Shown here: positions 6,867-21,184 of the stretch, in pieces
Layout of the letters: the number at the start of each line of letters is the position of its first letter
How positions within the stretch are numbered: position 1 is the first letter of the stretch
The notes under the pieces: generated by a model
The model's database searches: none
What the model was told of the DNA's origin: nothing
The model's input: only the letters and a program-made list of their open reading frames with translations
Program-made: the position numbers and the translations under genes
Virus record (IMG/VR): IMGVR_UViG_3300042448_000350
Span: 1-29,511 of that record
From: a virus
DNA: 29,511 nucleotides
Direction: 5' to 3' (one strand)

Positions 6867-6896
6867 AAAAAAAAAGGTGGTGTTTATTGCACCACC
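6867..6896 (-). terminator. Strong terminator after the major capsid gene
   Basis: In minus-strand RNA, GGUGGUG (6896-6890) pairs perfectly with CACCACC (6882-6876) around a seven-base loop, followed by nine U residues (6875-6867). It lies right behind the capsid stop. Since essential genes follow without a recognisable new promoter, it must be read through in part, giving a capsid-heavy transcript ratio, or it may protect the 3' end. Confidence 0.85.
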
Positions 6897-6918: not shown

Positions 6919-7854
6919 TTAGATTCCGTAAGTAACTACGTCAGAAGCAAAACCGTATTTAGCATCTGCAGTAAATCTCATTACTACTCTTACATTTTGA
7001 GAACCGTCATTTTCTGCCATGTCAATTACACGTACTTCGTTCAAGTCACTCATCAATCCTGTTGCAAAATACAAGTTAGAAGTTTGAGCTAACAAAGCTG
7101 TGTTTGTCGCAAGACCTGGAGCTAAAAATACTTTAACACCGTCAAAATAAAGGTCATTTAATTGTTGGTTAGTTCCTTTGTTATCGTAACCGTTAGCACC
7201 TACTCCAGAAGCAGCAAATCCACCCAAAGCACGAACGTAAGCACGATAGATATTAGAAGAAACATAAAGTTTCAAATCTTCTTTTCCGTACAAAGCAGCA
7301 GGTAAAGCATCAATGATAGAACCTAACTCAGCAACAACGTTAGAAGCTGTTACAGAAGTACCCGCTATTTTTTGCCCTGCAGGAAGTGAAGCATCTACGT
7401 CTAATTGTCGCATGATTCCAGAAAATTCACCAGCACTTGCGTTGTTACCGTCCCAAATAACTAATTCCATTTGTTGAGCAACTTTTTCAGCAGCATGAGC
7501 AATTAAGAAATCAGCGAATGATTTAGGCAATACGTCAAATGCAGAATACCCCATTTGAACAGCATCCCAATCTGAACGAAAGTCTGTTTTACAAAGTTGT
7601 AAGTTAACTTGAAAAGTTTCAGGTTGAAGAATTTTTTCAGTCAAAGTAACTGTTGACGTTGGGTCAAAGTCACAAGTTCCGTTTTTAATAATTCCGTCAG
7701 TAGCTACTTTTTTGATAACTTGTTTGTACTTAACGTTAGGCATGATAGTGATACCGCCTTTGTCTAATGTTGGACAGCTTAAAAGTGCTGCCGCAATGTA
7801 CTTACCTGCGAACTCGCCTGCGTAAGTAGTTGTAATTGAAGTTGTTGTTGCCAT
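6919..7854 (-). CDS. Major capsid protein, HK97 fold
   Basis: 311 aa. Starts MATTTSITTTYAGEFAGKY and includes GGITIMPNVKYKQVIKKV, CKTDFRSDWDAVQMG, FADFLIAHAAEKVAQQMELVIWDG and LPAALYGKEDLKLYVSSNIYRAYVRAL, which correspond to the E-loop/P-domain spine helix and A-domain layout of Bacteroidota HK97-type capsid proteins. It directly follows the scaffold-like gene and an XkdF-like protease two genes earlier, and is followed by the strongest terminator of the window. Codon choice is visibly richer in G+C than the neighbours, as expected of a highly expressed gene. The start may be processed. Confidence 0.85.
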   Translation of the reverse strand: MATTTSITTTYAGEFAGKYIAAALLSCPTLDKGGITIMPNVKYKQVIKKVATDGIIKNGTCDFDPTSTVTLTEKILQPETFQVNLQLCKTDFRSDWDAVQMGYSAFDVLPKSFADFLIAHAAEKVAQQMELVIWDGNNASAGEFSGIMRQLDVDASLPAGQKIAGTSVTASNVVAELGSIIDALPAALYGKEDLKLYVSSNIYRAYVRALGGFAASGVGANGYDNKGTNQQLNDLYFDGVKVFLAPGLATNTALLAQTSNLYFATGLMSDLNEVRVIDMAENDGSQNVRVVMRFTADAKYGFASDVVTYGI

Positions 7855-9676: not shown

Positions 9677-11917
9677 TTAAAATGATGCGTTTTGTAACCT
9701 ATTTCTTTCAAGGCTCAATCCATTTGCTACGTCCCCACTAACTACATAAGCCCTTGTTGGTTGTTGTTGTATTTGTGCTAATTGATTAACTCCAGAACTT
9801 CCTATAACATTAAAGTTAGGAGCCATTGCACCACCTCCAGCACTTGGAGATTGAACTTGGTCGCCACCACCATCAAATTTAGCTTTCGATATTGTAGCTA
9901 TTTGTAACGCACCCATAGCAGCTGCAGCAATACCAAACGGAATACCAGTTGGAATACCACCACCGTTTCTAATTGATTGTACTACGTTTGATGCTGTATC
10001 TATAATAGTTTGAACAATTCTTAATTTTTTATCTCTTTCAAACATTTTACGTTTAATATCTTCTTCGTCTTTACTACCTTTTTTTACACTTTTCAATCTT
10101 TCTTCATCGTTTGCGTTTAATAATGAATTAAGACTTGACATCGCTTGTCCGAATGTTTGAGCATATTTTAAAATTAAATCTACACGTGCCTGTTGAGATA
10201 CCTTTGCTTTTTCTGCGTATGTTTTTTCAATCTTATCTATTTCAGCTTGTTTAGCTTCTTCAATTATTGCTAATTTTTCTGCATTTCCTTTTGCTTCTTC
10301 TTCAAGTGTAAAATACTTTTGCCTAACTAATTCTAATTCATATTCTTCTTCACTCATTGATTTCTTTAAACGTGCCTGAAAATTAGATTCGTCTATTTCT
10401 TCAATTTCTGAATTAAGTTGATTTTCTTGTTCAATTCTTATTTTATTAGCTTCTGCTTTCGCTTCTGCTTCTTTTGCGTAATAATCAGCATCTAATTTTT
10501 CTAAATCTTTATTTAAGTTTTCTTGAATTAGTTTTGTTAATTGTGCTTTTTGTTCACTTGATGCTGTACTACTTTCAATTTCTTTTATTCGTGTTTGTGC
10601 ATCCGTTATTAATTTAACTTGTTGCTGTGCGTTTATATCTTGAATCTGTTTAATTTCTTCTTCATAAATTTGTTGTTTTAAATCTGCAACTTCTGTTATA
10701 GTTTTAGTTTCTGTACTTGCATTTTCAGTTGTTTGTTCAACGTATTTTTTCCCGTTATAAGTTAACTTATCAATTTCTCCTTGTGCTGTTAAGGATGATT
10801 TACCATAAGAATCCAATCGTTTTTCAGCATTCTTTAAAGATTCTCCATACTCAACAATAGATACTTTTCCTTGTTTGTATTCTGCATTTAATGAATTTAT
10901 CTTTTCTTGTAGTTTATCGTATTGAGAAAACAACTGTGTTTCCGTTGTTACTCTACTGGCTGAACTTAATGCTTTTTGTGAGGATACTAATTCCTTTTCA
11001 ATTTCAATTTGTCTTCGCTTTTGCTTATTTAATTTAGTAGTTATTTCGTCTTGAACTTCTAAATTCTTAGTTATTTTTTCTTCGTTTTTCTGTAAGGTAA
11101 ATTTTGCTTTTTGATATTCCAAATAGTTTTTTACTTCCTTATTTAATTGCGCTTGAAATTCTGCTTCGTCACTAAGGTTTTTTAACGTTGTACCGTACTT
11201 TTTATTTATTTCCGAAATTAATGTACTTCGCTCTTTACTACCTTTATTAGTTGCTTTTAATTGACTTATATAACCTACAAATGCTGCGCTTTCTTTAGAT
11301 ACCGTTTCACGCATTTCTTTTGCATCTTGAATGGCTCTTTTTTGTTGCTCATTGAATTTCTGTTGCTCTTTATTTGTGATTCCAATATACTCTGAAACCT
11401 TATCCCAATTAGCAATTAATATACCTATTCCAGTAATTAACAATCCTATTCCCGTAATTGCAAAAGCCTTACCAGCTGCAGTCATTCCTTTAAACGCATC
11501 TTTAGCAACCGCTCCTAATTGCATGAATGAATCCTTTGCTTCCAATACACCTTGAAGACCTTGTGACAATGCCATAGCACTTTGTACTTTTAACATCGTC
11601 TTTTGTAATGATTCACTTTCAACACCTATTAAACCCAATGCTCCCTCGTATGCTTGGAAACCGTTTAATACACCACCAATAGAACTGCTTAATGAATTAA
11701 ATTTAGCATCTGGGTTGAACGCATCAGTTAAGTTTTTTGCGTCTTCAATAGCATCTTTTAATTCGGATGCTTTCTTTGCAGCATTAACCGCTTCTTGTGA
11801 AGTTGCACCAAACTTTTCACTTAACTTTTGTACCTCTGCCTGTGCTTCTCTTAATTGAGATTTTAAACTTTTTTCATTGGTCTGAATGTCTAATTCAATT
11901 ACCCTTTTTTCTGCCAT
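9677..11917 (-). CDS. Tail tape measure protein
   Basis: 746 aa. Starts MAEKRVIELDIQTNEKSLKS and continues as long coiled coil (Gln/Glu/Lys/Ala-rich, about 10-90, 185-400 and 430-600). A hydrophobic segment AFAITGIGLLITGIGILIAN (about 150-170) and a second Gly/Ala-rich hydrophobic region near 660-690 (IPTGIPFGIAAAAMGALQIA) are typical of tape measures, which form channels in the host membrane. At roughly 0.15 nm per residue it would set a tail of about 110 nm (inference). No peptidase motif is seen. Unusually, the next genes are head genes rather than tail-tip genes. Confidence 0.85.
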   Translation of the reverse strand: MAEKRVIELDIQTNEKSLKSQLREAQAEVQKLSEKFGATSQEAVNAAKKASELKDAIEDAKNLTDAFNPDAKFNSLSSSIGGVLNGFQAYEGALGLIGVESESLQKTMLKVQSAMALSQGLQGVLEAKDSFMQLGAVAKDAFKGMTAAGKAFAITGIGLLITGIGILIANWDKVSEYIGITNKEQQKFNEQQKRAIQDAKEMRETVSKESAAFVGYISQLKATNKGSKERSTLISEINKKYGTTLKNLSDEAEFQAQLNKEVKNYLEYQKAKFTLQKNEEKITKNLEVQDEITTKLNKQKRRQIEIEKELVSSQKALSSASRVTTETQLFSQYDKLQEKINSLNAEYKQGKVSIVEYGESLKNAEKRLDSYGKSSLTAQGEIDKLTYNGKKYVEQTTENASTETKTITEVADLKQQIYEEEIKQIQDINAQQQVKLITDAQTRIKEIESSTASSEQKAQLTKLIQENLNKDLEKLDADYYAKEAEAKAEANKIRIEQENQLNSEIEEIDESNFQARLKKSMSEEEYELELVRQKYFTLEEEAKGNAEKLAIIEEAKQAEIDKIEKTYAEKAKVSQQARVDLILKYAQTFGQAMSSLNSLLNANDEERLKSVKKGSKDEEDIKRKMFERDKKLRIVQTIIDTASNVVQSIRNGGGIPTGIPFGIAAAAMGALQIATISKAKFDGGGDQVQSPSAGGGAMAPNFNVIGSSGVNQLAQIQQQPTRAYVVSGDVANGLSLERNRLQNASF

Positions 11918-15741: not shown

Positions 15742-16247
15742 TTCTTAAAATTTTGTTTCATTACACTATCAAATAAATCTACCACATCCAACCCGTAACT
15801 TTCAACTAAATCATCTGGTAACTTTTTAAACCCTGCTTCAAATGGTTTTGTAAAAAATAAACTTGGTTTAATTCCTTTCTCAAATATAGAACGTGCTATT
15901 GCAAAGTTTAAACCTTTTCTACTTTGAAATTGTCCTTTAACATTTCTCGGTGCAATACCTCTACGAATAGTCCATTTGTCAAATGCGCTCGGAGGTGGCA
16001 TTTTAGATTTATAAGAAAACGGAGTATTAAATTTTCTTTTTTTACCTGATACACCTTTGTCTTGATAGAACCCATACTCCTCCATATCGAAGTAAATACC
16101 TATTGAATTCGGGAATTGTTTTGCTTCTCCTGAAATTGAATTGTAAAGTTTTTTTGATGCGTTTTTATTCTTTGTAGTTAAGTTCCTTTTGGATTGAGCT
16201 ACTACATACGCAACAAATTTCTTTATAGTTTCTTCGTGGTTAGTCAT
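15738..16247 (-). CDS. HK97 gp10-like head-tail/tail completion protein
   Basis: 169 aa, basic. It has an N-terminal helix (HEETIKKFVAYVVAQSKRNL), then strands with IGIYFDMEEYGFYQDKGVSG, a Lys/Arg-rich loop, and a C-terminal helical part with KPSLFFTKPFEAGFKKLPDDL. The 'EYGFYQDKGVSG' strand and overall layout resemble HK97 gp10-like proteins that join tail and head. Position next to the tail-terminator candidate (eight-base overlap) supports this. Similarity is by eye only. Confidence 0.6.
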   Translation of the reverse strand: MTNHEETIKKFVAYVVAQSKRNLTTKNKNASKKLYNSISGEAKQFPNSIGIYFDMEEYGFYQDKGVSGKKRKFNTPFSYKSKMPPPSAFDKWTIRRGIAPRNVKGQFQSRKGLNFAIARSIFEKGIKPSLFFTKPFEAGFKKLPDDLVESYGLDVVDLFDSVMKQNFKK

Positions 16248-16698
16248 TACAAACAGTCATTTCGTTGCCTATTAAATAATCAAAAGTCATAGTCCACCCT
16301 GCTAAGTTGTTTTCAAAACGTTCAATGAACGGTTCGAGTGTTGGATTACCGTCAATAATTCCAGCATTCAAAAAGTAATCACCCCTTATTAACTTATCAT
16401 ATACTCGATTAAGCATTACTACCTGAGTATTTAATACGTCTTGTTCATTATCGTTGCCTACAAAAATATCAGTTGTTTCGTCTTTTGATATATCTACTAT
16501 ATCCATTGCTATAATAGAAATGTTATAACGAATAACGTTATTTTCAAACGTGGCAGTATTTACCATGATATGCGACAAAGGGAAAATTGTTTGTTTAGAT
16601 AAATCAACTCTAAATATATCTCCCTCCGTTACCGTGTTAACTAAATTAGTTGCTTCTAATTCCGTCTTTATGGTGTTTAAAATTGCGTAATAACTCAT
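16240..16698 (-). CDS. Tail terminator-like protein
   Basis: 152 aa. Starts MSYYAILNTIKTELEATNLV; an N-terminal helix is followed by strands FPLSHIMVNTATF and VIRYNISIIAMDIVDI, a loop, a helix VLNTQVVMLNRVYDKL, and a last strand AGWTMTFDYLIGNEM. This alpha-beta layout (helix, strand pair, helix, strand) fits gpU/tail-terminator family proteins, which cap the tail tube. It sits directly between the tail chaperone and the gp10-like gene. No sequence motif proves it. Confidence 0.6.
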   Translation of the reverse strand: MSYYAILNTIKTELEATNLVNTVTEGDIFRVDLSKQTIFPLSHIMVNTATFENNVIRYNISIIAMDIVDISKDETTDIFVGNDNEQDVLNTQVVMLNRVYDKLIRGDYFLNAGIIDGNPTLEPFIERFENNLAGWTMTFDYLIGNEMTVCND

Positions 16699-16970
16699 CT
16701 TTTAATTTGTCTTTTTAATTCTCTATTTTCTATTTCCTGTTTCTGCTTTTCAAAAGTAAGGTAGGTAAGTGCTTTTGTAAGTCGTAGTCTGGTAACTTCG
16801 TCAAATTTTGTGACATCTCCCTTAGCGACTGCATATATTGATTGATACCACCCCCACTGTTTTGCAAATTGAGTTCTTTCGCTAAAGTCGTTTGTATCTG
16901 CTTGTTCATCTTCACTTGGTTCTCCAAATAATACAGGGTAGCCGTCAATAATTCGTTTTCTAAATTGCAA
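16695..16970 (-). CDS. -1 frame extension of the tail assembly chaperone
   Basis: This frame opens at the T9 run with TTG and holds no ATG or suitable start; it reads LQFRKRIIDGYPVLFGEP, then FAKQWGWYQSIYAVAKGDVT and LTKALTYLTFEKQKQEI. The Trp-rich WGWYQSIY and LTYLTFEKQKQE parts look like the conserved end of Bacteroidota-phage tail chaperones, so the frame is real. A -1 slip at 16969-16977 joins it to the first 163 residues of the upstream frame, giving a 254-aa G-T-like fusion. The first 240 bases are dual-coded with the gene at 16730-17458. Confidence 0.75.
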   Translation of the reverse strand: MQFRKRIIDGYPVLFGEPSEDEQADTNDFSERTQFAKQWGWYQSIYAVAKGDVTKFDEVTRLRLTKALTYLTFEKQKQEIENRELKRQIKR

Positions 16971-17458
16971 AAAAAAACTTGTGCAGCTAAAGCAATATCC
17001 AAAGGAGCAAATTCCATTACTTCTGAATAATTAGCTGAACTAACATACTCCTCAATTAAATACTTGTTTCTGTGTTTTTCTTTTATTGGTCGATACATAA
17101 CTGCCATTGCTTTGTGAAAGTTGTTTATATCGCTTATATTCGATTCTAAGTCTATATATTCTCCCCAACTTATTTCTTCTAAGTTTGGAATAAAACCAAA
17201 TTCAACTCCAGATAATGTAAACCTATTTTGAAAATTCGTCTTTTGCTCAAATAACTTTGCAAAGTGAATGCTTAATGCTTCGATTTCTTTAAACGGAATC
17301 TTAACTATTTCTTTTAATTCAATACCGCAAAATATCTGAATCATCTTTTCAGCTAAAAATTCTTCATCATTCGTCTTTTTGGATAACTCTAAAAACTTCT
17401 GATAATGCTTTAAAGGTATTTCACTTAGCTTTGTCGGTATGGTTAGTTCTAATTTCAT
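16730..17458 (-). CDS. Tail assembly chaperone, frame-0 product
   Basis: 242 aa. Starts MKLELTIPTKLSEIPLKHYQ, a typical opening of tail chaperone (gpG-like) proteins of Bacteroidota phages, with mixed helices after it and WGEYIDLESNI near 100. At residues 161-163 (VFF) the T9 run allows a -1 shift to the other product. Without slipping, translation continues 79 residues in frame 0 through NSGGGINQYMQSLREM to SRNRK. Both frames look constrained. Such proteins bind the tape measure and recruit tail tube subunits. It lies downstream of TerL, far from the tape measure gene, which is unusual. Confidence 0.75.
   Translation of the reverse strand: MKLELTIPTKLSEIPLKHYQKFLELSKKTNDEEFLAEKMIQIFCGIELKEIVKIPFKEIEALSIHFAKLFEQKTNFQNRFTLSGVEFGFIPNLEEISWGEYIDLESNISDINNFHKAMAVMYRPIKEKHRNKYLIEEYVSSANYSEVMEFAPLDIALAAQVFFCNLENELLTATLYYLENQVKMNKQIQTTLAKELNLQNSGGGINQYMQSLREMSQNLTKLPDYDLQKHLPTLLLKSRNRK
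16969..16977 (-). other. T9 slippery site for -1 frameshifting
   Basis: The coding strand reads GTT TTT TTT TGC, i.e. nine consecutive T after G. Peptidyl- and aminoacyl-tRNA-Phe can both re-pair after sliding back one base (U UUU UUU pattern), moving translation into the frame LQFRKR. RNA polymerase slippage on T9 could have the same effect. I did not identify a clear stimulatory stem-loop. Confidence 0.75.
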
Positions 17459-17643
17459 TCTTTATTATTAAACGTTTGTTCTGTTTTTTTGTAGTTCACA
17501 GCAATAGAATACGCATCTCCTAACATTATTAAATGCTTTCTTATACTTTGAGGGTCATCAAATACTATTTTAATTCGTTTTCCTGTACGAATATACACAT
17601 AGTTCTCAACTACCGCCTTTAATATCGGTGTGTCATCTGTCAT
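17455..17643 (-). CDS. Hypothetical protein between TerL and the tail chaperone, 62 aa
   Basis: Starts MTDDTPILKAVVENYVYIRT; a helix, two strands (KRIKIVFDD) and a helix (SIRKHLIMLGDAYSIAVNYKK) suggest a small alpha/beta protein. Its ATG overlaps the end of TerL and its stop overlaps the chaperone ATG (ATGA). No family is recognised; packing in the structural operon argues for a virion or assembly role. Confidence 0.65.
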   Translation of the reverse strand: MTDDTPILKAVVENYVYIRTGKRIKIVFDDPQSIRKHLIMLGDAYSIAVNYKKTEQTFNNKE

Positions 17644-18803
17644 TATCGTATATTATACGTTCCGTAATTGCGCTTTAATCCGAGTGTTTCCATTTCATGA
17701 TAACGAAAAGCATCAATAGCATGGTTATTATTGTCAATAGGTTTGTTTAACCTGGTTCCGTTTTTATCTACGTCCCAACAATAAGCACGAAGTTCTTTGA
17801 TTAAATTAATACTGTTTGACGTCACTAAATACTCCTGCTGTTGTATTACATCAATTCCGTAATTAATGCTATCCTTACCCTTTGTAACACCCTTAATAGT
17901 TACTCCATATCGTTTTATTTCGTCTATTGATTTCGGTTCTGAACTATCAGCATAAATAGGTACGTGTTTTGGAAGTATTTTAGCTATATCGCTGTTTAAC
18001 ATTCCTGTTTGGTACTTTAATTCATTAAGTATTCGTGTTCCGTTATAATTGTAAACTTCAATTATTGCAGTCGGATCGTTTGTATATCCAAAGTCTAAAC
18101 CGATTCCAATTAATTTAGCTTCTTTTGGTAGTACGTCAATTTGTTTCCAATTACTGAATATAACACCCTCAAGCATTCCTATTTCTCCTAATCCGTAAAC
18201 CCTCCACCAATTACTCCAATAGCTACTTGTTTCTGCTTTTAAACGATTCTTTTCTATTTGTTGAACAATACTATTATCAAGTGCTTCGTTGTCTTTGTAC
18301 GTTAAGATTATAAACTCACTGTCTGCTTCGTCTTTTAGTTCCGTATGTACCCAAAATTCATTGGCAGGGTTGAAATCTAAATAGACTTCTTTTTTTGTTC
18401 GAATAGCAAGTTCATTATAACTTTCAAAAGTGATATTATTACACTCATTAATATAGAGAATATCCCTACGAGCACCACGTAACTTACTGCTATCGTCAGC
18501 AGAAAAAAACTCAAAACTACTTCCATTCTTAAATTGATAGTTAAGAAGCGATTTATTAAATTGGTCTTCATAATATCTGTTAGTCCATTTAAGTATTTTT
18601 AAAAAGTCTTTTAATGCTCCCCTACGCAAGTGAGGTATTGATTCAGCTACTATGCTTATTTCTAAGTTAGGTTGTATTATTGCTTTGTTTATTAAGACTG
18701 CTAATATAGAATACGTTTTCGAAGCTGAGGTTCCGCCTTGAATTATTTTGATTCGTTTTTTTAAAGCGAGTACCTTATTCGTTGCTGTCGTTCTCTGAAA
18801 CAT
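17643..18803 (-). CDS. terL: Terminase large subunit
   Basis: 386 aa packaging motor with ATPase and nuclease domains. Walker A-type GGTSASKT is at 23-30, an adenine-side motif at the start, and Walker B DILYINE at 114-120 with catalytic E120. The C-terminal RNase H-like nuclease shows GLDFGYTNDPTA (first Asp) near 235, ADSSEPKSIDEI near 287, and HAIDAFRY near 363. The length is at the short end for TerL but all motifs are present. It starts with ATG 29 bases inside the TerS gene. It cuts concatemers and drives DNA into the prohead. Confidence 0.93.
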   Translation of the reverse strand: MFQRTTATNKVLALKKRIKIIQGGTSASKTYSILAVLINKAIIQPNLEISIVAESIPHLRRGALKDFLKILKWTNRYYEDQFNKSLLNYQFKNGSSFEFFSADDSSKLRGARRDILYINECNNITFESYNELAIRTKKEVYLDFNPANEFWVHTELKDEADSEFIILTYKDNEALDNSIVQQIEKNRLKAETSSYWSNWWRVYGLGEIGMLEGVIFSNWKQIDVLPKEAKLIGIGLDFGYTNDPTAIIEVYNYNGTRILNELKYQTGMLNSDIAKILPKHVPIYADSSEPKSIDEIKRYGVTIKGVTKGKDSINYGIDVIQQQEYLVTSNSINLIKELRAYCWDVDKNGTRLNKPIDNNNHAIDAFRYHEMETLGLKRNYGTYNIR

Positions 18804-19110
18804 CAGGAAATAAAGGTTGTTCTACTATTGTTTGTTCTATCTGTTGAAGTGGCGCACCATAACCGCTATCCATTAATGCTTTATAAGCAGCTACATCTCC
18901 CTCACGTGCTTTCTTTATAAGTGCCAAAGTCATTAAATCTTCTTGGCTCATTGTTTCGCTTTCTCCTGTTAACGGGTTTTTTAAGTTCTGATTAACTTCT
19001 AACCAATACTTTGCTATTGTGCTGCGGTTCTTTGCTCCTTTAGGTCTACCGTTAGGGTTTCCGCTTTCGCCTTTTTCCCAACGTGGTTCTATTTCTTTAT
19101 ATCCTGCCAT
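18775..19110 (-). CDS. terS: Terminase small subunit-like protein
   Basis: 111 aa. Opens MAGYKEIEPRWEKGESGNPN and continues GRPKGAKNRST, the 'W-x-K-G-x-SGNP-GRPKGAKNR' signature of DUF5681-type small terminase proteins. A central helix EDLMTLALIKKAREGDVAAYKALMDSGYG follows (about 56-84), then an acidic C-terminus. The basic Gly/Pro/Arg start probably contacts DNA. Its 3' end overlaps TerL by 29 bases, the usual terS-terL coupling. Confidence 0.8.
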   Translation of the reverse strand: MAGYKEIEPRWEKGESGNPNGRPKGAKNRSTIAKYWLEVNQNLKNPLTGESETMSQEDLMTLALIKKAREGDVAAYKALMDSGYGAPLQQIEQTIVEQPLFPDVSENDSNE

Positions 19111-19117
19111 CTCGTTG

Positions 19118-19918
19118 TTATTTCGTTGTTTTCTCTACAAATGCTTTAAGAGGGTAAAATACAAGGCTATTTCTATATCCACCCTCATGAGTTGGAATAA
19201 TTGGTGTTACTCCATGTATATTTTTCCAAGCTGGATAAACAAGTATTGAATTATCCTCTTGTCCTATTGTAGCATTATAATCTGGTATATGTAAATCTCC
19301 GCCTTTTGAATTTAGTTTCTTGCAAATTATAACGTTAACCGCTCCAACTATATTTTTAGTATCTCTATGAAAAGGAGCTGAAATATTAAAGTTTGAAATT
19401 GAACTTGTAAATAAGTTTGCAAATCTCCATTTTTCAGGAACATCATTAAATAATTCAATTTGTTGTTTATATTGTTTAGGTAATAATTCTTTTATTAATT
19501 GTTCACTTTCTTTTGCTAATAGTAACATAGCTTTAATAAAAGTTTTTGATTTTTTATTTAGATGAACACTTGAAATTGACGGATAAGGTCTTGACATATG
19601 AGGTTTAGGAGGTATGCTTCCAATTATAGTACTTAATTGTTCAACTTCATTTTTATATTTAAAATTTCCTGTTTTTTCGTCAATACCATCTCCAGTTCTT
19701 CTTGTTAAAAGTGTTTTTTTTACATTATTACTTCTAAACTCTGCATTTGCTAATTCTGCCAACTTGCACATCTTTTCAGGCATCTTTGTAAGATAAAATC
19801 CAATAGGTTCTCCGTTATCGTAAAAAATGCAATCTTCAGTTATGTTTGGTTCTATTGTTCCGCACGTGTCTCCTATTTTAACATCGTGTTTTTGTAGTAT
19901 CAAATCAATTCTTTTCAT
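19118..19918 (-). CDS. 2OG-Fe(II) dioxygenase, TET/JBP-like
   Basis: 266 aa from the ATG at 19918-19916, which overlaps the methyltransferase end by 14 bases; an ATG 51 bases farther upstream is less likely. The double-stranded beta-helix motifs are visible: FHRDTKN (H184 and D186, the HxD iron ligands), GGDLHIPDY (206-214), NIHGVTPI (H235, third iron ligand) and GYRNSLVFY (R249, 2-oxoglutarate). The upstream part has RSNNVKKTLLTRRTG, IPPKPHMSRPYPS and WRFANLFTSS, which I recognise from TET/JBP-type oxygenases of phages. Those hydroxylate methylated bases in DNA. The place between TerS and a methyltransferase supports a nucleic-acid target, but a protein or glycan substrate is not excluded. 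Confidence 0.75.
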   Translation of the reverse strand: MKRIDLILQKHDVKIGDTCGTIEPNITEDCIFYDNGEPIGFYLTKMPEKMCKLAELANAEFRSNNVKKTLLTRRTGDGIDEKTGNFKYKNEVEQLSTIIGSIPPKPHMSRPYPSISSVHLNKKSKTFIKAMLLLAKESEQLIKELLPKQYKQQIELFNDVPEKWRFANLFTSSISNFNISAPFHRDTKNIVGAVNVIICKKLNSKGGDLHIPDYNATIGQEDNSILVYPAWKNIHGVTPIIPTHEGGYRNSLVFYPLKAFVEKTTK

Positions 19919-20603
19919 ATCCAAATACATTTGTACAAGCTGGAAACCAAGACTTTTGCCATACGTCATAATCTCGGCTTTTAAACTTCGCTGTGTTTCC
20001 TATTTCTGCTAAATTATAAACTCTATTTTGTTTTTCAATTATATTCCAAAATCTTGGTAAACTTCCGTCAATATCAAAACTCCATTCATAAACTAATTTT
20101 TTAAATACTTTATTCGTGTTTTCAAGTATAGGCATTTCAGCACCCTCAATATCCATTTTACAGCAATCAAAATTTTCTGCTTCTAAATCAAAATTTAAAC
20201 AAGGAACTTTTATTCCTTTGTTATTCCATTTCTTAACAATAGAATTTCGCCATACATTTCCGTTATTCCCTATAAAAAGTATTATTTCTTTTGTATCATT
20301 ATGAATTAAAGCGGCTTGTTTTATCTCAGCATTAAAATTATTCAGCTTCAAATTTCTTTCAATCATTTTGCAGTTAAACGGGTCAGGTTCATAAATAGTA
20401 ACTTTTGCTCCTTTTGAACAAGCTAATAAAGCAAATGCACCAACGTTACCACCACAATCCATCCACTTTTCACCTTTATTTATTGTCATTCCTTTTTTAA
20501 GATAGGTTTTATTTCCTATTACTTCATTGAATGTTTTAAGGTCTGAAAAACCTTCTCGATGATAAAATTTTATTCCGTCTATTTGTCCCTCGTTTAACTT
20601 CAT
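19905..20603 (-). CDS. FkbM-family SAM-dependent methyltransferase
   Basis: 232 aa. SAM-binding motif I WMDCGGNVGAFALL (47-60), the acidic strand VTIYEPDPFN (68-77) and DCCKMDIEGAEMPIL (146-160) are the standard FkbM motifs. FkbM enzymes are usually O-methyltransferases of sugars or small molecules. Starts MKLNEGQIDGIKFYHREG, with ATG overlapping the ParB-like stop (ATGA). It lies in a run ParB-like, FkbM, oxygenase, TerS, TerL, so it may modify a base adduct, a virion glycan, or a protein. The target cannot be deduced. Confidence 0.8.
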   Translation of the reverse strand: MKLNEGQIDGIKFYHREGFSDLKTFNEVIGNKTYLKKGMTINKGEKWMDCGGNVGAFALLACSKGAKVTIYEPDPFNCKMIERNLKLNNFNAEIKQAALIHNDTKEIILFIGNNGNVWRNSIVKKWNNKGIKVPCLNFDLEAENFDCCKMDIEGAEMPILENTNKVFKKLVYEWSFDIDGSLPRFWNIIEKQNRVYNLAEIGNTAKFKSRDYDVWQKSWFPACTNVFGYEKN

Positions 20604-21184
20604 AACTTTTCCTTTTCGTCTTTAAGTTTTTCCATTATAAAACCACCAATATATAATTCTTTTTGTCTCCAAAACTTTACAAGTTCGTAGGCTTCTTCGT
20701 AGTGTTCCGCTTCAAATTCTATTTGAATTGCTTTTTTTACTCCGTCGGTCATTGCATTTAGTTGGTCTTCTAAGTCTTCATCGTCTAAAATTGAATAGTC
20801 AACATCATCCGCAAAGATTGGGACATTCAACCCCCATTCGTCTAACTTTTCAGCATCCCATTCATTTGCTAAACTATCCCAATCCCATTCTCCAAATCCT
20901 ACGTTATCTTTAATTAAAAACTCTGCTTTTTGTTCTTCCGTCCATTCGTCTGCTATTATAACGGGTATTTCTTTAAATTTTAACTCATTTAAGGCTTTTA
21001 AACGCATATTACCACCTAAGACAACGTATTTATCATCTACATCAGTAAAAACGATTAGAGGTCGTTTATTTAGCATATCAGGAAACTCCTGAATTGACTT
21101 AACTAACTTTTGGAATTTTCCGTCTTTTATTATTCTTGGGTTCTTTGGGTTCGGCTTTACGTCCGTTATCTTTACTAATTTCAT
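20600..21184 (-). CDS. ParB/Srx-like nuclease-fold protein
   Basis: 194 aa. The N-terminal ParB/sulfiredoxin-like domain shows VKPNPKNPRIIKDG (9-22), LIVFTDVDDKYVVLGGNMRLKAL (43-65) and ADEWTEEQKAEFLIKDN (78-94). It is followed by GEWDWDSLANEWDAEKLDEWGL, typical of phage ParB-like proteins located near terminase or methyltransferase genes. The C-terminal domain is acidic and ends LYIGGFIMEKLKDEKEKL. No DNA-binding HTH follows, so it is not a partition protein. Phage members are thought to be DNA-modification-linked or nicking enzymes; activity here is unknown. Confidence 0.75.
   Translation of the reverse strand: MKLVKITDVKPNPKNPRIIKDGKFQKLVKSIQEFPDMLNKRPLIVFTDVDDKYVVLGGNMRLKALNELKFKEIPVIIADEWTEEQKAEFLIKDNVGFGEWDWDSLANEWDAEKLDEWGLNVPIFADDVDYSILDDEDLEDQLNAMTDGVKKAIQIEFEAEHYEEAYELVKFWRQKELYIGGFIMEKLKDEKEKL

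Follow-up and report, generated by a model that had tools for sequence, protein, structure and literature searches.

A candidate tail assembly chaperone gene with a T9 slip run and a long overlap constrained in two frames in a phage probably infecting Flavobacteriaceae

A conserved -1 frameshift in the tail assembly chaperones of phages was reportedly described by Xu, Hendrix and Duda in 2004. The tail assembly chaperones that carry a conserved -1 frameshift, lambda gpG/gpGT and its relatives, have since been reviewed (PMC5009743), and tandem -1 slippage is the mode of the lambda-like ones (PMC5009743). Such frameshifts usually adjoin the frame-0 stop (PMC10885494). In the SEA-PHAGES set, on which PRFect was trained, the slip lies on average 26 nt from the in-frame stop; PRFect uses this distance as a feature, and just 2 of the 43 frameshifts in its viral test set are more than 51 nt from the stop (PMC10885494).

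The window considered here, i.e. the whole stretch of 29,511 bases that was analysed, carries genes annotated as terminase, portal, protease, tape measure and endolysin. The host is probably a member of Flavobacteriaceae, because the named relatives of the phage are Nonlabens phages and one contig of a Flavobacteriaceae MAG; the search of the genome collection yielded one related place, in a Flavobacteriaceae MAG. Like lambda gpG/gpGT, the gene that we describe has an N-terminal part shared by two predicted products, a putative -1 shift at a slippery run and a C-terminal extension on the product predicted to be minor, and it precedes the tape measure gene, with which it shares its orientation. 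Unlike in lambda-type chaperones, the run is T9, and four genes stand between the chaperone-like gene and the tape measure gene. Moreover, the slip is far upstream of the frame-0 stop (237 nt in this phage versus the SEA-PHAGES mean of 26 nt), and the post-slip frame 0 is constrained as protein. The earlier note likewise contrasted this gene with the common G/GT case, as the predicted short product continues long past the slip.

Long recoded overlaps are found in RNA viruses, in particular, influenza PA-X, cardiovirus 2B* and potyvirus P3N-PIPO. There, as at this locus, the frame change is far from the stop and dozens of codons can be read in two frames; unlike this phage gene, these are cases from RNA viruses, with other proteins, other slip sites and no homology. 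The literature covered, which includes at most a minority of the subscription journals, held no report of a long recoded overlap in phage tail chaperones and no paper on such a frameshift in Flavobacterium phages.

In the Nonlabens phages P12024L and P12024S (Inhavirus), the N-terminal part of the corresponding pair gp40/gp41 is about 30% identical to this protein. Similar to this phage, P12024L has T9 and the -1 WGWY domain, whereas its frame-0 end is only 25 residues long. The annotation of the cultured phage P12024L (L008, JQ823123.1, 4001-4695) treats the frameshift pair as two unrelated hypothetical genes, gp40 and gp41, the latter lacking the first part of the -1 extension. Across hundreds of genomes of aquatic phages, similar cases may go unnoticed or be split into two hypothetical genes in the same manner. 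Judging by the sequences, the gene very likely yields two proteins through a -1 slip at T9, and hundreds of related phages keep both readings for ~165 nt or more, far beyond the textbook tail-chaperone case.

The features relevant to the argument are as follows.

16730..17458 (stop included), minus strand: frame-0 ORF encoding the putative G-like product, 242 aa; aligned over 76 sequences.
16969..16977, minus strand: T9 slip run, phased G TT.TTT.TTT.T GC, with an in-phase T TTT TTT inside.
16695..16970, minus strand: -1-frame extension, putative T-like domain with WGWYQSIY; 91 codons and the stop.
16733..16969, minus strand: frame-0 end unique to the short product, 79 codons.
16913..16966, minus strand: dual-coded block 1, frame-0 codons +1 to +18 after the slip.
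16802..16858, minus strand: dual-coded block 2, frame-0 codons +37 to +55, predicted helix 202-219.
16240..16698, minus strand: next gene, 152 aa, whose ATG overlaps the -1 stop as ATGA (16698-16695).
17643..18803, minus strand: terminase large subunit gene (PF04466 with E 8.9e-15, PF17288), two genes upstream.
9677..11917, minus strand: tape measure protein gene (phrog_1538, tail length tape measure protein, E 4.4e-5).

The sequence, ORFs and translations reproduced all coordinates of the earlier note, including GTT TTT TTT TGC at 16978-16967. The two predicted products have 163 residues in common, followed by entirely different ends of 79 and 91 residues. On the same strand, the region 18775-21184, from the terminase genes to a ParB-like gene (20600-21184), also contains a probable methyltransferase gene (19905-20603, FkbM-like by eye) and a 283-aa gene of unclear role (19118-19969).

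We infer that a shift takes place at the T9 run, with the ribosome as its agent and tail assembly as its purpose. Specifically, we assign a probability of about 75% to the reading that two proteins are made in a set ratio by a G/GT-like -1 slip at T9, with ~165 nt serving both. Most ribosomes would stay in frame and produce the 242-residue G-like protein. A minority would shift back by one base at T9, most likely via tandem slippage of two tRNA-Phe on T TTT TTT, yielding a product composed of the 163 shared residues and a T-like helical domain of ~91 residues with WGWY. In analogy to gpG and gpGT of lambda, we would expect the short form to coat the tape measure protein and the long form to recruit the tail tube subunit to that protein. 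The post-slip frame 0 would be used too, completing a long helix and adding a second one.

The T9 run is both rare and conserved. The window contains two T9 runs, compared to the mean of 15.4 in dinucleotide shuffles, and the other sense-strand ORFs of related loci contain six in 706,581 nt. The second T9 of the window (6867-6875, minus strand) is intergenic and may represent a terminator U tract; it is flanked by a probable head gene (6919-7854), perhaps that of the major capsid protein, on one side and by the next gene on the other.

To collect relatives, we searched with the N-terminal half by itself, with the whole frame-0 protein and the -1 domain, and with alignments built from either of the latter two, which yielded about 400 partly overlapping loci, nearly all metagenomic. 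At 381 sites, representing 303 distinct sequences, the run was T9 in 272, T10 in 29 and T12 in two of the distinct sequences, and never shorter. In 80 loci found by N-terminal patterns lying off the site, T9 or T10 was present wherever the contig reached the site. T9 was also kept in 25 of 25 more distant loci, some of them with an altered WGW motif. In L408-L412, WSGY stands in place of WGWY, while T9 and a 55-codon frame-0 end are retained. The longer runs arose by substitution or by a whole extra codon, so that the phase was kept, with the exception of L020 (478-1239), where one extra T (T10) fuses the N-terminal and -1 domains in the genome. This could be a mutant, a polymorphism, or a sequencing or assembly error. 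Relatives with the run broken at an intact site, which the earlier note had regarded as evidence against its reading, were sought in about 400 loci, and none were found; the conservation of poly-T that it had proposed to look for holds at a length of at least nine in the 303 distinct sequences and extends to the 25 distant loci.

The same two proteins would result if RNA polymerase slipped on T9, leaving some transcripts with one extra U. Runs of about nine or more A/T are reportedly the substrate of bacterial transcriptional slippage (the finding is said to be that of Wagner et al. in 1990), and the run at this site fits that description. It is never T7 or T8 in the 303 distinct sequences, though T7 suffices for the ribosome. 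No downstream RNA stimulator was found, the mean fold z being -0.44 downstream versus -0.19 in the upstream control, and the window has no Rfam match or tRNA. The genomic T10 fusion in L020 would also be tolerable if the polymerase slips. Still, the flanking T's are set by the encoded amino acids as well (V/L/I/F before the run, Y/W/C/L after it), and columns comparable to them are almost as conserved. In addition, the slip phase is kept in all loci but L020, while efficient polymerase slippage should tolerate T8 and T10 alleles. The phase cannot separate the ribosome from the polymerase, since every T9 holds an in-phase T TTT TTT, and the combination of run length and phase, tried as a test between the two, was not decisive, as the flanking T's are also determined by the amino acids. 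We rank ribosomal slippage ahead and regard slippage by the polymerase as unlikely, albeit a serious contender. Somewhat more doubtful is a fuller scenario for a large clade of environmental phages, probably of Flavobacteriia, in which polymerase slippage at an obligatory run of T9 or more sets the chaperone ratio and a second helix has been overprinted on the T domain, giving the two chaperones different folded C-termini from one piece of DNA. In any case, the lower limit on the poly-T length would allow ribosomal and transcriptional slippage in Bacteroidota to be compared cleanly.

That the gene works like a G/GT tail assembly chaperone is suggested by its anatomy and a weak fold match. Searches of both products against Pfam, NCBIfam and PDB sequences gave nothing significant, and PHROG matches were limited to families of unknown function, including phrog_32199 for the frame-0 ORF (E 6.6e-16). 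Known tail chaperones also diverge beyond sequence recognition. Foldseek found nothing significant in PDB for the frame-0 model, and the fold search of the -1 domain in PDB gave weak matches only. The HK97 tail assembly chaperone (PDB 2ob9), with no detected sequence similarity, aligned to residues 1-74 with VIA-align Z 3.5, rmsd 4.0 and 68 aligned residues, among unrelated weak matches and within the chance range of Z for helical proteins. No major tail protein was recognised beside the gene. It is, therefore, conceivable that both products are real and serve something other than tail assembly, as there is no match to a family or solved structure and the gene is near the terminase, away from the tape measure gene. 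We consider this improbable: chaperone genes classically show just this anatomy, with a -1 extension for a helical C-terminal domain in a tail-module gene that precedes the tape measure gene, and the HK97 chaperone is among the weak fold matches.

With a threshold of E 1e-3, the fold search in BFVD produced 37 matches, almost all to uncharacterised phage proteins, including one from P12024S. Four BFVD proteins of 226-267 aa (A0A6J5N0W0, A0A6J7WDG4, A0A516L611 and A0A516L5A8) match both the N-domain and the -1-domain models, and relatives with both domains in one frame, unshifted, may thus exist. Several of these accessions may, we presume, derive from long-read data, in which homopolymer errors are common. 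Flavobacterium phage 6H (L312, KC959568.1, 9586-10927) encodes a weak fold relative, AGN89393.1, that terminates at CFFYSTR; the frames that follow point to one or more frame breaks, and this locus was excluded.

Comparison of the sequences indicates that the dual coding is real, as each frame is constrained above a null that fixes the other. Among 80 representatives, compared at 65-75% N-terminal identity, the identity of codons for the same amino acid was 0.756 in the overlap versus 0.471 before the slip. The fraction of GTC among valine codons increases from 0.05 before the slip to 0.43 in the overlap, and that of GTG drops from 0.13 to 0, changes that help to avoid frame-0 stops; the fraction of GGA among glycine codons increases from 0.32 to 0.77, a change that avoidance of stops does not call for. 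In close relatives, substitutions are distributed over the frame-0 codon positions as 19/11/70% before the slip versus 26/42/32% in the overlap, so that the third-position bias is lost.

We then applied a stricter null to 16 lineages below 55% identity, fixing the -1 protein and also forbidding frame-0 stops (200 draws). Frame-0 identity was 0.358 at codons +1 to +18, compared to the null value of 0.221 (sd 0.015), and 0.438 at codons +37 to +55, compared to 0.296 (sd 0.016), in both cases above all 200 draws. At codons +19 to +36 the values were 0.283 and 0.257, and from codon +56 on, 0.280 and 0.250, the latter excess being matched by 18 of 200 draws. In the opposite direction, with frame 0 given, the identity of the -1 frame was 0.491 versus 0.216 (sd 0.008). 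As a control, shifted frames of the single-coded part exceed the null by 0.004-0.032, compared to 0.11-0.27 for the overlap. Since the control frames show almost no excess, shared ancestry is not the explanation of the constraint in the overlap. The codon identity of the -1 frame is also raised past the frame-0 stop (0.57-0.67, few sites), being lower than in the overlap in most divergence classes; this may be caused by the codon bias of the Lys/Glu-rich sequence.

The constrained overlap thus spans about 165 nt, or the first ~55 frame-0 codons, by the same comparisons. No constraint was detectable by the null test on relatives in the last ~24 residues of the 79-residue end of this phage. The earlier note had proposed a dual-coded overlap of 240 bases with a constrained frame-0 continuation: each frame does stand above the null given the other, as its check on synonymous sites anticipated, while the length has to be reduced and the constraint confined to the first ~55 of the 79 codons. 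Similarly, in the segment GGGINQYMQSL, singled out as apparently constrained, I, N, M, L and E of the frame-0 segment exceed the null, whereas GG does not (0.76 versus 0.75 and 0.70 versus 0.70), being forced by WGW in the other frame.

The two blocks agree with the predicted structure of the frame-0 product. In this model (pLDDT 81), helix 153-184 crosses the slip residues 162-163 and is continued by block 1; it is followed by a short helix and then by helix 202-219, which matches block 2, and the last residues are of low confidence. The -1 domain is modelled as helical (pLDDT 73), with a low-confidence stretch near the start.

Among relatives, the frame-0 end varies from 48 to 88 codons, 55 being the length in a large group. 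It has 16 to about 31 residues in P12024L and its near relatives, in L416/L417 and in distant relatives. Given these short ends, either the main clade acquired the second frame-0 helix or other lineages lost it. The short ends, as well as the undetected frame-0 constraint past codon +55, could also mean that past the slip the -1 product alone is of importance, frame 0 being open by chance or due to a nucleotide signal such as an RNA structure or a binding site. We consider this very improbable. With the -1 protein fixed and N-terminal codon usage, frame 0 was open for at least 51 codons in 5.8% of draws on average, yet nearly all relatives maintain the opening; BLOSUM62 similarity, beyond identity alone, is in excess in the two blocks that coincide with the predicted helices; and there is no notable RNA structure. 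Provided that both ends are produced, the locus is a natural example of a single DNA segment shaped by two helical protein domains, which raises the question of whether the short chaperone needs a folded end of its own.

Finally, we considered where the frame changes. The earlier note stated that the -1 frame opens only at the run. This does not hold in the window, where the -1 frame is already open about two dozen codons upstream of the run, while the site is bounded in four other loci (L041, L058, L099 and L163), which have a -1-frame stop 9 nt upstream of the slip codon, and there the frame change must fall inside the run. Its claim that the -1 frame has no start of its own is borne out: between the slip codon and WGW, 78 of the 80 representatives have no ATG, GTG or TTG, and 59 of the 80 have TTA as their first -1 codon. 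Accordingly, an independent start of the -1 ORF was rejected, and a separate gene, for which one could cite the annotation of the -1 frame end of P12024L as a CDS of its own (P12024L_41) and the TTG in the run of this window, is hardly credible, given that TTA is a non-start. From the sequence, the -1 extension is very likely accessed by recoding only. At its end, ATGA is found at the -1 stop in 65 of the 80 representatives, and due to this overlap ribosomes reading the -1 frame would terminate on the start codon of the next gene.
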